A stretch of 64,000 bases of DNA from assembly GCA_018883245.1 (NCBI GenBank), contig VEQL01000005.1:1-64000 (forward strand), in the 5' to 3' direction. Every line of letters starts with the position of its first letter. The stretch's first letter is position 1. The DNA comes from Chthoniobacterales bacterium (lineage in GTDB: Bacteria; Verrucomicrobiota; Verrucomicrobiia; Chthoniobacterales; JACTMZ01). Below are positions 30,716 through 39,013 of the stretch, piece by piece. Position numbers and translations under genes: made by a program. Below the pieces are notes generated by a model that was given only the letters and a program-made list of their open reading frames with translations, made no database searches and was not told where the DNA came from.

Positions 30716-33076
30716 CTACCAGTCTCTTGAGACATCCTGAAAGTTCCGTCGTTCGAGAAGCTGCACTTGTTCCTCCTCGTTCTGCAATGAACGCAACAAA
30801 GCCCGCGCCTGAGATTCGCTCATCCGGCCCTCGGCCTCCGCCTGCGCTTCGGCAATCGCGGCGGCCTCTTCCTTTCCGCCCTCGCCGCCTTGCTGCGCGC
30901 CGCGGATCTCGCCTTGCTTCTTTTCGCCCGACTGCTGCGGAACAGGCGCCGGTTTTTCACCCGCTTTGTTGCCGGCCTGTTGCCGGGCGTCAGAGGGCTG
31001 GCCTTCACCCTGATCTTCGCGCTGTTCGCCCTCGCGACCTTGCTGCGCTTCGTCTTTTTTCTCCTCTCCCTTCTGTCCCGGGGATTGCTCCTCTTTTTTC
31101 TCGCCGCTTTGGCCTTGGTCTTTCTTCTCCTCCTCGCCGCCACCGGCAGGTTTCTTGTCTTCGCCCTTCTCGCCGGATTGCTCTTCCTGCTTCTCGCCTT
31201 GCGAGCCTTGCTGCTTCTGCTCGTCTTTCTTGTCATCGCCGGACTGCTGCTGTTCGTCCTTCTTCTCTTGGCTGCCGCCCTGCTGCTGGTCCTTGTTCTG
31301 TTCGCCCTGCTGCTCCTGCTCTTTTTTATCCTGACCGCTCCCTTGCTGCTGCTGGTCCTGCTTCTGCTGCTGGCCTTGCTGCTCGTCTTTTTTCTCCTGC
31401 TGTCCACCACCCTGCTGTTGCTGATCTTTTTTGTCGCCCGATTGCTGCTGGTCGTCCTTCTTCTGCTGACCGCCGCCCTGTTGCTGTTGGTCTTTTTTCT
31501 GGTCGCCCTGCTGCTCCTGCTCCTTCTTGTCCTGGCCTCCGCCTTGCTGCTGCTGGTCCTGTTTCTGCTGCTGGTCTTGTTGCTTTTGATCCTGCTTTTG
31601 CTGGTCCTTCTTTTTGTCCTGTTGCTTCTGCTCTTGCTCCGCCTGCTTGAGCAATTCCTCGACACGCTGCTTGTTTTCTTTCGCCTCGACGTAATCCGGA
31701 CGCGTCTTGAGCGCTGCCTCGTATTTGGCGATGGCGTCCTTCCAGTCGGTGATCTTCTTCTCTTTATCAGCCTGACCCTCGCCTTGGCGGAACAAGGTGT
31801 TAGCGAGGTTGAACTCCGCGGACGACCTCAGCGCGGGATCGTCGGACAGCATGGCACGGGAGAAATACTCGGAGGCTTTGCCGTAGTCCTTGAGACGATA
31901 AGCAGCGGCGCCTGCGTTGAGTTGAAGGTCGGGCGAGGCCGGCTCCATTTTGAGGCGCTTCTCAAAGGCCTGGCGCGCCGTCTCGTAATCGCCGTGTTCG
32001 TAGGCCTCGAGGCCCATGGGTGCAGCCCATGATGCGGGCGCGAACGCAAGCCACACCGCGGCGGCGACCGCGGCCGCCGGGCGGCGACGGCGCTCGCCAA
32101 CCAAGGCTTGAAGGACGAGCAGGGCGATCGCCGCTCCGAGCGGCCATTGGTAGCGCTCGATGGGACGACGCGACGAATTCATGGTGATGTCAGCTTCCGC
32201 CAACTTGCCGATCCCGTCCACTGCCAGGCGCTGAGCCGCTCCGTCATCCAAGGGCGTGTAAAATCCCCCCGCAGCCTCGGCGATTTCTTTCATCCGCGCC
32301 TCGTCGAGGCGCGACTGCACAACTTTGCCGGATGGATCGCGCACGAATTCACCCGGACCGAGCGGGATCTCCGATCCCTCGGAAGAGCCGACACCCACGG
32401 TGAAAATGCGGACTCCGTCCGCACCGGCCTGTTTGGCCGCCACCAAGCCATCGGCATCGAGTTCCTCGCCATCGGAGATGATGATGAGTGCGCGCGAAAA
32501 ACCTTCGGCTTTGCCGAAAGCTTCCTCGGCGGTGGCAATAGCCGCCGCGATATTCGTGCCACCCTTCGGAATGACCGTGGTGTCCAGTTCGTCGAGCGCC
32601 GCGAGCACAGCCCCATGGTCGAGAGTCAGTGGAGCTTGCAGGAATCCGGACCCGGCGAACGCCACCAGACCGACACGATCGGCGCCGAGTTCGCTGATGA
32701 GATCTTCGGCCAGAAGCTTCGCCCGGTCGAGGCGCGACGGCGCGACATCCGGCGCGAGCATCGAACGCGAGACGTCCATCGCGATGATGACATCGCGACC
32801 ACGGTGCGGCACCTCGAGAGTGTCATAGCCGAGCTGCGGACCGGCCATGGTGACAACGAGCAACCCGAGCGCGCCAAGGATACACGCGCTGCGAAACCAG
32901 CGGCGCGCGGGACTGCTGCTACCCGCAAGTTGCGAGCGCAGCTTGGGAGCGACGATGCGGCCGATCATGGCCTGACGCCGCCGTTCGGCCCACCAGTAGA
33001 GCGCGACCACCAGCGGCAGCAGCCAGAGGAAGTGCAGAAGCGCGGGACGGGCAAAAGTCAGGGCAGACGTCTCCAT
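30716..33076 (-). CDS. batB: BatB-BatC fusion: VWA domain, TPRs and Gln/Lys-rich tract
   Basis: 786 residues. Two N-terminal membrane helices (about 10-30 and 62-80) flank the start of a von Willebrand A domain, whose MIDAS motif is Asp101-x-Ser103-x-Ser105 (AMDVSRSML). FAGSGFLQAPLTLD and IIISDGEELDADG continue the domain. Another membrane helix lies near 310-330. BatC-like TPRs follow (about 350-470: LEAYEHGDYETARQAFEKRL, AEFNLANTLFRQGEGQ). Residues about 475-690 are almost only Gln, Lys, Asp, Glu and Gly in irregular repeats. The C-terminus is a charged helix (EEEQVQLLERRNFQDVSRDW). In many bacteria BatB and BatC are separate genes. It overlaps batA by 19 bases. Confidence 0.88.
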   Translation of the reverse strand: METSALTFARPALLHFLWLLPLVVALYWWAERRRQAMIGRIVAPKLRSQLAGSSSPARRWFRSACILGALGLLVVTMAGPQLGYDTLEVPHRGRDVIIAMDVSRSMLAPDVAPSRLDRAKLLAEDLISELGADRVGLVAFAGSGFLQAPLTLDHGAVLAALDELDTTVIPKGGTNIAAAIATAEEAFGKAEGFSRALIIISDGEELDADGLVAAKQAGADGVRIFTVGVGSSEGSEIPLGPGEFVRDPSGKVVQSRLDEARMKEIAEAAGGFYTPLDDGAAQRLAVDGIGKLAEADITMNSSRRPIERYQWPLGAAIALLVLQALVGERRRRPAAAVAAAVWLAFAPASWAAPMGLEAYEHGDYETARQAFEKRLKMEPASPDLQLNAGAAAYRLKDYGKASEYFSRAMLSDDPALRSSAEFNLANTLFRQGEGQADKEKKITDWKDAIAKYEAALKTRPDYVEAKENKQRVEELLKQAEQEQKQQDKKKDQQKQDQKQQDQQQKQDQQQQGGGQDKKEQEQQGDQKKDQQQQGGGQQKKDDQQQSGDKKDQQQQGGGQQEKKDEQQGQQQKQDQQQQGSGQDKKEQEQQGEQNKDQQQGGSQEKKDEQQQSGDDKKDEQKQQGSQGEKQEEQSGEKGEDKKPAGGGEEEKKDQGQSGEKKEEQSPGQKGEEKKDEAQQGREGEQREDQGEGQPSDARQQAGNKAGEKPAPVPQQSGEKKQGEIRGAQQGGEGGKEEAAAIAEAQAEAEGRMSESQARALLRSLQNEEEQVQLLERRNFQDVSRDW
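31010..31650 (-). repeat. Degenerate in-frame repeat coding the Gln/Lys-rich tract
   Basis: On the minus strand this stretch is built from variants of CAG-CAG-CAG, AAG-AAG-GAC and GGC-GGC blocks, coding units such as KKDQQQQGGGQ and KKDEQQQSGD. Unit lengths vary from about 9 to 20 codons, so it looks like past slippage and unequal exchange rather than one clean tandem repeat. The opposite strand reads as a long Leu-rich open frame, which is an artefact. Confidence 0.85.
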
Positions 33077-34080
33077 ATCGTTTGTCCGAGCAGGGTTTCC
33101 GCGGCGAGCAGCACCGCGCCGACGAGCACGAACCACGGAAAAAGGTCGCGGTATTGCGCGACTTTCTGGATTTCCACCTGCGATTTTTCCAGCTCGTCGA
33201 TTTCGTTGAAAATGCGCTGCAGCGACTGCGTGTCTGTCGCGCGAAAATACGATCCGCCGGTCATGGAGGCGATTTCCTTGAGGCTTTCCTCGTTGAACTC
33301 CACGGGGATCTGACGGTAAACCGTGCGTCCGAAGGGATCGACGAAGGGGAACGGTGCGTTGCCGCGGCTCCCCGCACCGATGGTGTAAACTTTGATCCCC
33401 AAGGCCTTGGCCGCCTCGGCTGCGGTGAGCGGCGTGACGCGACCCATGTTGTTGTCGCCGTCGGTGAGCAACACGACGAGTTTCGATTTGGCTTCCTTGT
33501 CTTTCAGGCGGTTGGATGCCGCGGCCAAAGCCGACCCGATCGCGGTGCCATCCTCGACCAGACCGATGCGCGTGCGGTCGAGATTTTGCGTGAGCCAGTC
33601 ATGGTCGAGAGTCAGCGGGCTGACCAGATAGGGCCTGCCGGCAAAAGCCACGATACCGATGCGGTCGTTCGGACGCCCCGCGATGAACTGGTCGGTCACG
33701 CGCTTGATCGCCTCCAGCCGGTTCGCGCGCTGGCCGCCGATGGTGAAATCCTCCGCCAGCATCGAACGCGAGACGTCGATCACGAGCATGATGTCCACGC
33801 CGCTGGCTTGCGTGCGGGTGATCGTTTTGCCGAGTTGCGGGCGCGCCAGCGCGAGGATCAGGCAGGCCAAGGCAAAGTAGAGAAGCCCGGTGAGAAAATC
33901 GCCGGCGCGCGAACGGCGGCGTCCGCCGATTTTTCCCACGGTCTTCGTGGTCGAAAACAAAACCCCGGGGGTCCCGCCGATCTTGCCCTTCAGCCACGAG
34001 ACCAGGGGAATCAGCAGCAGAAGCCAGAGGAACTTCGGCTGCTGGAAAGAAAGCGCGGAAAAATCAGGCAGCCACGACAT
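33058..34080 (-). CDS. batA: BatA: membrane-anchored VWA protein
   Basis: 340 residues. The layout is N-terminal helix (about 15-30, FLWLLLLIPLVSWL), second helix (about 64-80), VWA domain, then a C-terminal helix (about 315-335, LFPWFVLVGAVLLAAETLL). The MIDAS Asp102-x-Ser104-x-Ser106 lies in VIDVSRSMLAEDF. GIVAFAGRPYLVSPLTLDHD and VVLLTDGDNNMG match BatA. The VWA domain probably faces the periplasm and binds a partner through a divalent cation. It overlaps both neighbours (17 and 19 bases). Confidence 0.92.
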   Translation of the reverse strand: MSWLPDFSALSFQQPKFLWLLLLIPLVSWLKGKIGGTPGVLFSTTKTVGKIGGRRRSRAGDFLTGLLYFALACLILALARPQLGKTITRTQASGVDIMLVIDVSRSMLAEDFTIGGQRANRLEAIKRVTDQFIAGRPNDRIGIVAFAGRPYLVSPLTLDHDWLTQNLDRTRIGLVEDGTAIGSALAAASNRLKDKEAKSKLVVLLTDGDNNMGRVTPLTAAEAAKALGIKVYTIGAGSRGNAPFPFVDPFGRTVYRQIPVEFNEESLKEIASMTGGSYFRATDTQSLQRIFNEIDELEKSQVEIQKVAQYRDLFPWFVLVGAVLLAAETLLGQTIWRRLP

Positions 34081-37126: not shown

Positions 37127-39013
37127 ATGGATTACGCGGCCTACTTGCTTGTGCTGGGACTGCTCGCGGTGCTCGGACGGTTGCCATTGGAACTGGTCTT
37201 CCGAGCCGGGGCCCTGCTCGGGCTCGGGGCCTGGGCACTTCTGCCCGGCTACCGCCGGCTCGCGCGGCGCAATATGCACATCGCGTTCGGTCACACCATG
37301 ACCGAACGCGAGATCGGTGCGGCCGTGCGACGCCACTTCATGACACTCGGAGCCAATCTGCTCAGCGTGCCGCGACTCGCACGCATGCCGGTGCACGATG
37401 TGGACCGGCGCGTCGAACTCATCGGCCTGCCGGGATTGCGCGCAGCGCTCGATCGCGGGAAGGGAGTGGTGATGGCCATCAACCACATCGGGAACTGGGA
37501 GCTTTATGCGCAACTGATCAGCCATGTGAGCGACGTTCCGGTCGGAGCGGTTTTCCAATCGCAGAGGAACAAATACCTCAACAGGCTCATCGACCGCGAC
37601 CGCCGGCGACTCGGCCTGCAGACCTTCGACAGACGCAAGGGCTATCTCGGCGCCGCCGATCTCGTCGAAAGCGGCGGCATCCTCGCCATCCTCGTGGACC
37701 AGCACGCCGGCGATGCCGCGCTCTGGACGCCGCTTTTCGGACGCATGGCTTCGACTTCCACGCTGGCAGCCATCATCGCCCAGAAAACCGGCGCGCCGCT
37801 TGTCTCGGTTGCCATCCACACCACGGGAACCGCGCGCTGGCGGTGCGTCATTGAACCGCCGGTGGAGCCGGCAGGCAAAACCGTGGAGGAACTGACCGCC
37901 GGGTTGAACCGGACACTCGAGCGGCAGATCTCCGGATCCCCGCCCGACTGGTTCTGGGTCCACAACCGCTGGAAAATCCCGGGTCCGTTTCTCCTGGGAC
38001 GCGCGCGGCGCGGATTTTATCTCCCGCCGGACGAATCGATGAAGGACATCCAGCCCTTCCGTCTTCTGGTGCGCTCGAGCAACTGGCTCGGCGATGCCGT
38101 GATGAACATCCCGGCCGTCGAGGCATGCAAAAAATCCCGGCCCGACCTCCATCTCACCATATTGACGCCGGCAAAACTTGCACCCCTCTGGCGGCGGGTC
38201 GCCGGCGTTGACGATGTCATCGAAATCCGCGGGAAAGAATCCCCGCTCGCTCTCCGCAAACGCGTGCGGCGCGAGTTCGACGCCGCCATTCTTTTTCCCA
38301 ACTCGCTCCGCTCCGCTCTTGAGGCGAAAGCACTCGGCGCGCGGCGGATCGTCGGCTATCCGGGCCACTGGCGCCGCTGGCTGCTGGGGGGTGTTCCGAA
38401 ATTCACCGCGGACTCGCAAGGACACCACGCCGAGCGCTACCTGCGGCTGGTCGAGCACTTCGGCGCTCCGAAACGCGATGAGCCGGCAACGTTCGCCCCG
38501 CGCCCTGCAAGGGCGCGCCCGACCGTGCCACGGATCGGCATTTGCCCGGGCGCCGAATACGGCCCCGCCAAACGCTGGCCGGCGGAGAAATTCGCCGCAG
38601 CCATGCGATTGTTCCACGGGTCGGTGCCGGCGGAGTTTGTCATATTCGGAGTCGCCGGGGATGCGGAACCGGCGCAAACCATCGCCGGAAATGTCCCGTT
38701 TCCTGTCCGCAACCTCGTCGGCCGCACCTCGCTCGACCAACTGATGGATGAGCTTGCCGCGTGCGACGCGCTGCTGACCAACGATACGGGGACAATGCAT
38801 CTCGCGGCGTTCCTCGGTGTCCCGACGGTAGCCGTGTTCGGATCCACCGAACCGGAACTCACGTCACCGCTGGGCGATTTCCACCGGATCCTGCGGCACA
38901 AGGTCGAGTGCAGCCCGTGCTTCCTGCGCGTATGCCCGATCGACTTCCGGTGCATGACCCGCCTCGCACCCGGGGAGGCGGCAAAGTCCTTGCACGAAGT
39001 TATCGGGCTCTGA
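37127..39013 (+). CDS. Fused lipid A acyltransferase (LpxL-like) and heptosyltransferase (WaaF-like)
   Basis: 628 residues. Domain 1 (about 1-285) is an LpxL/HtrB-type acyltransferase: an N-terminal hydrophobic helix, the catalytic HX4(D/E) motif His120-IGNW-Glu125, GILAILVDQHAG, and the closing DWFWVHNRWK. Domain 2 (about 311-625) is a glycosyltransferase family 9 heptosyltransferase: LLVRSSNWLGDAVMNIPAVE, GICPGAEYGPAKRWPAEKFA, LLTNDTGTMHLAAFLGVP and FGSTEP. Domain 1 would add a secondary acyl chain to lipid A and domain 2 an inner-core heptose. The join (about 285-310) is short and has no stop or frameshift. An internal ATG at residue 305 (38039) could also start domain 2 alone, but no ribosome-binding site is evident. 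Confidence 0.88.
   Translation: MDYAAYLLVLGLLAVLGRLPLELVFRAGALLGLGAWALLPGYRRLARRNMHIAFGHTMTEREIGAAVRRHFMTLGANLLSVPRLARMPVHDVDRRVELIGLPGLRAALDRGKGVVMAINHIGNWELYAQLISHVSDVPVGAVFQSQRNKYLNRLIDRDRRRLGLQTFDRRKGYLGAADLVESGGILAILVDQHAGDAALWTPLFGRMASTSTLAAIIAQKTGAPLVSVAIHTTGTARWRCVIEPPVEPAGKTVEELTAGLNRTLERQISGSPPDWFWVHNRWKIPGPFLLGRARRGFYLPPDESMKDIQPFRLLVRSSNWLGDAVMNIPAVEACKKSRPDLHLTILTPAKLAPLWRRVAGVDDVIEIRGKESPLALRKRVRREFDAAILFPNSLRSALEAKALGARRIVGYPGHWRRWLLGGVPKFTADSQGHHAERYLRLVEHFGAPKRDEPATFAPRPARARPTVPRIGICPGAEYGPAKRWPAEKFAAAMRLFHGSVPAEFVIFGVAGDAEPAQTIAGNVPFPVRNLVGRTSLDQLMDELAACDALLTNDTGTMHLAAFLGVPTVAVFGSTEPELTSPLGDFHRILRHKVECSPCFLRVCPIDFRCMTRLAPGEAAKSLHEVIGL

Follow-up and report, generated by a model that had tools for sequence, protein, structure and literature searches.

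Lipopolysaccharide (LPS) synthesis is generally described as the work of one separate enzyme after another. The substrate of LpxL in E. coli is Kdo2-lipid IVA, a membrane-bound acceptor to which heptoses are attached by WaaC first and WaaF second; the late acyltransferase and the heptosyltransferase are separate proteins. A fusion of lpxC and fabZ is found in Bacteroidetes, Chlorobi and Verrucomicrobia (PMC3087551). The same paper, a survey of the evolution of Kdo2-lipid A, does not contain the terms 'heptosyl', 'fusion' or 'two-domain'. No description of a fused late acyltransferase and heptosyltransferase was found in the literature searched, which consisted largely of papers outside subscription. 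Domain databases may already list the architecture.

The gene described here joins these two kinds of enzyme. It lies on the forward strand of the window (the whole 64,000-nucleotide stretch of Chthoniobacterales DNA that was analysed) and forms a single open frame without an internal stop. Its parts are as follows.

37127-39013, + strand: complete fused gene, LpxL-type acyltransferase plus GT9/WaaF-type heptosyltransferase, 628 codons plus stop (open reading frame, Pfam, NCBIfam)
37130-37180, + strand: predicted N-terminal hydrophobic helix, residues 2-18 (predicted secondary structure, sequence)
37133-37975, + strand: LpxL-type acyltransferase domain, residues 3-283 (PF03279, fold match to PatA and LpxM)
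37484-37501, + strand: HX4E catalytic motif HIGNWE, residues 120-125 (H120 and E125 invariant in the alignment)
37976-38056, + strand: linker, residues 284-310, ~27 residues (alignment; pLDDT about 90-97)
38039-38041, + strand: internal ATG, M305, a possible but unsupported start (alignment with 80 relatives)
38057-39010, + strand: GT9/WaaF-like heptosyltransferase domain, residues 311-628 (Pfam, TIGR02195, fold match, identity to WaaF)
38546-38578, + strand: donor-site block PGAEYGPAKRW, residues 474-484 (PGAEYGPAKRWP being 474-485) (alignment)
38780-38800, + strand: ADP-heptose-site block NDTGTMH, residues 552-558 (NDTGTMHLA being 552-560) (alignment)
38909-38953, + strand: four-cysteine cluster C595-x2-C598-x4-C603-x5-C609, called invariant; CSPCFLRVCPIDFRC (alignment)

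Both Pfam domains score more than 110 bits above their curated cut-offs. PF03279 (Lip_A_acyltrans) covers residues 3-283 (E 4.6e-44, 151.2 bits against a gathering score of 22.3) and PF01075 (Glyco_transf_9) covers residues 375-604 (E 1.4e-39). The acyltransferase half is closed by DWFWVHNRWK at residues 274-283. The original prediction had called both domains complete, quoting HIGNWE, DWFWVHNRWK, PGAEYGPAKRWP and NDTGTMHLA, and had described a join of about 25 residues without stop or frameshift; all four motifs are indeed present, and the linker within the single frame measures about 27 residues. The start MDYA is common to the window's protein and its four nearest relatives. By analogy with the LpxL/LpxM family, the helix at residues 2-18 is a probable inner-membrane anchor. 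Elsewhere in the window, an open frame of 806 codons on the reverse strand (30716-33136) has a very long low-complexity C-terminal part rich in Gln, Lys and Glu.

The first half is named LpxL-type, and not LpxL, because no LpxL or LpxM model of NCBIfam reaches its cut-off (TIGR02207, 95.5 against 297.8; TIGR02208, 63.3 against 336). Within these bounds the LpxL-type assignment of the original prediction agrees with the PF03279 match. H120, E125, R159 and D191 are unchanged in every fused and truncated row of the alignment, and H120 and E125 are invariant in the separate LpxL rows as well. The GT9 half scores 175.8 against a cut-off of 134.6 for TIGR02195, the heptosyltransferase II equivalog; three other GT9 proteins of the same genome were scored, and none reaches this cut-off. 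It is 32% identical to E. coli WaaF and 21% identical to WaaC, and the WaaF-type name given to it earlier is therefore retained. D323, K482 and N552-H558 align with the catalytic Asp, the Lys and the NDxGxMH motif of E. coli WaaF, and a PGAExGPAKRW-type block is common to the GT9 half and E. coli WaaF but not WaaC. Six of these positions (D323, K482, N552, D553, G555 and H558) are invariant in the alignment across the window's branch, E. coli WaaF and a second branch that we call Opitutaceae-type, a label that is a guess for groups f10, f15, f16, f7 and f13.

A different sugar as the substrate of the GT9 half, for instance HepI or a core hexose in place of HepII, is rather improbable. The GT9 family does include proteins other than WaaF, and the inner core of Akkermansia muciniphila contains three Kdo and one heptose (PMC13135019). 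However, the score against the WaaF model, the PGAExGPAKRW block and the higher identity to WaaF than to WaaC all speak for HepII, and a separate WaaC-like GT9 protein is encoded in the genome. Moreover, the GT9 half is degenerate in the Akkermansia-like relatives described below, so the single heptose is no argument for HepI activity.

To find relatives, 84,980 species' genomes were scanned and 80 proteins of 42-72% identity were kept. Both domains occur in the same order and in a single frame in 80 of 80, a recurrence too regular for chance and the outcome expected from the homologue search that the original prediction had proposed. Three frames continue past the end of their contig and a fourth starts at the edge of its contig; the junction is unbroken in every one of the 80. 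The 80 include the isolate Chthoniobacter flavus Ellin428 (L012), and the join is also present in single-contig genomes, for example G036, G018 and G221. Among 289 genomes drawn from the phylum, with domain content checked by profile in the fetched loci, the fused form was found in 44 further genomes, from 12 family groups of the class other than the window's own. Unfused GT9 genes are found in two groups of the class, f9 and f12, and at nine loci from other classes, and for the other classes of the phylum no row spanning both domains was among the matches listed. Judged from these sequences, the fusion is old and real, is common to most of the class Verrucomicrobiia and is not peculiar to the window's genome. 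The related genomes are mostly metagenome assemblies, which might favour an assembly or sequencing artefact joining two neighbouring genes, but the recurrence of the join in all 80 contigs, in the isolate and in single-contig genomes makes the chance of this negligible. The error at the junction for which the original prediction had allowed is thus set aside.

One of the 80 named contigs (L040) is titled Proteobacteria bacterium and carries the fused gene at 45% identity; this is probably a mislabelled metagenome bin. In genomes of groups f10 and f15, the fused gene has a second GT9 gene in its close vicinity (L099, L100, L102-L104, L109, L112 and L113). In groups f9 and f12 (L135 and L138), the frame that precedes the separate GT9 gene resembles, by eye, a shifted LpxK (VGNLTVGGTGKTP), and from this sequence lpxK may adjoin waaF in both groups. 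Long open frames had hinted that GT9 in f9 and f12 is fused to another domain, but Pfam found GT9 only; the surplus length is apparently an alternative frame of the gene upstream that goes unused. Finally, the fused gene appeared to be split in G281; the frame breaks within the GT9 half and not at the junction (L097 945-2946), through either a sequencing error or a real frameshift.

In the window's branch the linker conforms to TPxPNFLLxxYKRGxxLP...LxPF, a few rows of the alignment having longer inserts, and in the Opitutaceae-type branch it takes a different version of 30-35 residues. Among close relatives 33-78% of its residues are identical, compared with 67-90% in the domains, as expected for a linker. 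An AlphaFold2 model built with 60 relatives as input has a mean pLDDT of 93.4 and a pTM of 0.90, with no segment below 50; this confidence means that the two halves are predicted to stand in a defined mutual arrangement. A Foldseek search returned WaaF (1psw) first, with a TM score of 0.80 by target length, followed by PatA and LpxM, and the leading solved matches each span one half only. It is very unlikely that the gene yields two separate proteins, whether through an internal translation start at ATG 38039 or through proteolytic cleavage of the linker. An in-frame ATG does stand just 5' of the GT9 domain, and the linker is the least conserved stretch among close relatives. However, M305 occurs in the window only and in 0 of 80 aligned relatives, no Shine-Dalgarno-like sequence lies 5' of ATG 38039 (nor is there one 5' of 37127), and the linker has a class-wide pattern and is modelled at high confidence. 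The case raised in the original prediction, in which translation from ATG 38039 always gives a separate protein, accordingly lacks support.

In the LpxL tree, the acyltransferase halves of every fused or truncated protein group together in a single clade, apart from 19 separate LpxL-type rows (100/99, in all bootstrap trees). Because of this clade, a single fusion followed by vertical descent in Verrucomicrobiia appears to be the most likely origin. The GT9 halves fall into two groups in the free tree, but a single clade was not rejected (p-AU 0.288) in a test that left out long and paralogous rows. The first GT9 tree had pointed to two fusions independent of each other, which are unneeded at this p-AU and contrary to the LpxL tree.

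The window's genome encodes one Kdo transferase (WaaA), five GT9 proteins, of which one is WaaC-like, and one further LpxL-type gene. HldD is found above its cut-off, and the HldE kinase domain scores 329.5 bits against a cut-off of 345. With good but not full confidence, we propose from the family assignments that the gene product is a membrane-tethered bifunctional LPS enzyme, acting in late lipid A acylation and in HepII transfer. The first helix would fix the N-terminal half to the inner membrane on its inner face, and there this half would, like LpxL, use acyl-ACP to attach a secondary acyl chain to Kdo-lipid A. The C-terminal half, a WaaF-type and otherwise peripheral enzyme that the N-terminal half would keep at the membrane, would add HepII, the second heptose of the inner core, from ADP-heptose in the manner of WaaF. 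The benefit would probably be co-location and a 1:1 supply of both activities on the same pool of Kdo-lipid A substrate; strict substrate channelling is less likely because a separate WaaC-like HepI step intervenes. The fusion itself, its conservation and the keeping or loss of motifs are observed directly; both activities, their positions on the substrate and this benefit are our inferences.

The fused protein is the sole PF03279 protein in six genomes (G060, G164, G211, G173, G149 and G221), and G018 has one PF03279 match below the cut-off in addition. These counts come from single sampled genomes of groups f10, f15, f16, f7 and f13 and of the Akkermansia-like groups. Since no other PF03279 protein there scores above the cut-off, the fused protein is likely to be the main late acyltransferase in these groups.

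The two halves have met with unequal fates in one branch. In genus g9 of family f8 (16 genomes; L106, L110 and L154-L167), the GT9 half is kept near full length and scores 61-113 bits in 14 genomes and 38 and 3 bits in the other two. In the 15 rows aligned, E takes the place of D323 and K482 is missing; D553 is the one survivor among the N-D-T-G and M-H residues of the NDTGxMH block. The LpxL residues of these fused proteins are intact, and the four-cysteine cluster is kept in 14 of the 15 rows. The GT9 half of g9 is, on this sequence evidence, a probable pseudo-heptosyltransferase, which would have decayed later in this branch while the acyltransferase half stayed intact. In six further genomes (L128-L133; genera g37, g44 and g46) the LpxL domain is followed by a tail of ~110-165 residues, whose similarity to GT9 is marginal (E about 0.005 at best) and which may be a GT9 remnant.

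These observations bear on a different reading of the whole family, in which the acyltransferase half is essential and the GT9 half serves mainly a structural or regulatory purpose, its heptosyl activity being secondary, weak or absent. The 16 genomes that keep a GT9 half without catalytic residues beside an intact LpxL domain, the six relatives with just a tail, and the conserved linker pattern would all suit it. However, the WaaF-type active-site residues are invariant in the window's and Opitutaceae-type branches, which argues for selection on heptosyl transfer in those two branches, and the window's GT9 half reaches the cut-off of the WaaF model when the other scored GT9 proteins of the genome do not. 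We consider this reading unlikely and prefer a bifunctional enzyme for the window's protein. Nonetheless, the loss of GT9 catalytic residues in the Akkermansia-like branch means that activity of both halves is no general requirement of the fusion. The original prediction that fusion ties lipid A acylation to heptose addition survives as the proposed benefit, but not as the whole story, for a degenerate GT9 half persists in that branch.

Genus g9 is probably Akkermansia or close to it. A sequence that we take to be an Akkermansia 16S primer (CAGCACGTGAAGGTGGGGAC) was used as a marker for the genus; it matches G221 at three places, with one mismatch, and none of nine further genomes, five of which also belong to g9. 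As an identification of g9 this match is weak and suggestive only. In A. muciniphila HW07, JFJHEM_01585 is described as a 'potentially new acyltransferase' with 23.7% identity to LpxL, and the part of that description available to us mentions no second domain (PMC12527988). As the sole PF03279 protein of the Akkermansia-like G221 is the fused one, JFJHEM_01585, likened to it by description, is possibly the Akkermansia form of the fused protein. The single heptose of A. muciniphila LOS would fit a missing HepII transferase, and the two reports together fit a live LpxL half beside a dead HepII half. We tentatively suggest, with somewhat less than even confidence, a class-wide bifunctional acyltransferase-heptosyltransferase of one origin, of which Akkermansia keeps the GT9 half only as a dead module. 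If true, the dead module would account for the one heptose in the inner core of Akkermansia LOS, and it would follow that a pseudo-glycosyltransferase domain plays a non-catalytic part in the acylation of lipid A.

Several consequences follow for LPS synthesis. Most of a bacterial class would have a single polypeptide for late acylation and for the addition of inner-core heptose, and in several groups, each represented by single sampled genomes, no other late acyltransferase was found. Physical coupling of acylation and heptose addition thereby becomes testable. The fused protein is also a candidate for the seat of the Akkermansia late acyltransferase and for the reason why the core might hold one heptose. 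Lastly, the family offers a natural series from intact through degenerate to truncated, with a glycosyltransferase domain inside a conserved host protein.

Compared with LpxL/LpxM (HtrB/MsbB, PF03279), the fused protein has a complete domain with HX4E, the conserved R and D and the N-terminal helix, and is alike in fold, A. baumannii LpxM (5kn7) and mycobacterial PatA being matched; it differs by about 345 further residues, which make up the linker and the second enzyme. The likeness to WaaF (RfaF, CAZy GT9) lies in the TIGR02195 score, all donor-site blocks and the top fold match, 1psw. However, WaaF is a separate protein, and its counterpart here is the C-terminal half of an acyltransferase. 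E. coli WaaF also lacks the four-cysteine cluster of the window's GT9 half, and in the alignment the Opitutaceae-type fused proteins lack it too. The cluster is a possible metal site; the iron finger of TibC (PMC4358343) embodies a similar idea, as an analogy only. The lpxC/fabZ fusion, also present in this phylum, likewise joins enzymes that make lipid A and fatty acids (PMC3087551), but involves other genes and another step of the pathway. Both parts of the present protein belong to known families; the novelty lies in how they are combined, how widely the combination has spread and how one half has decayed.
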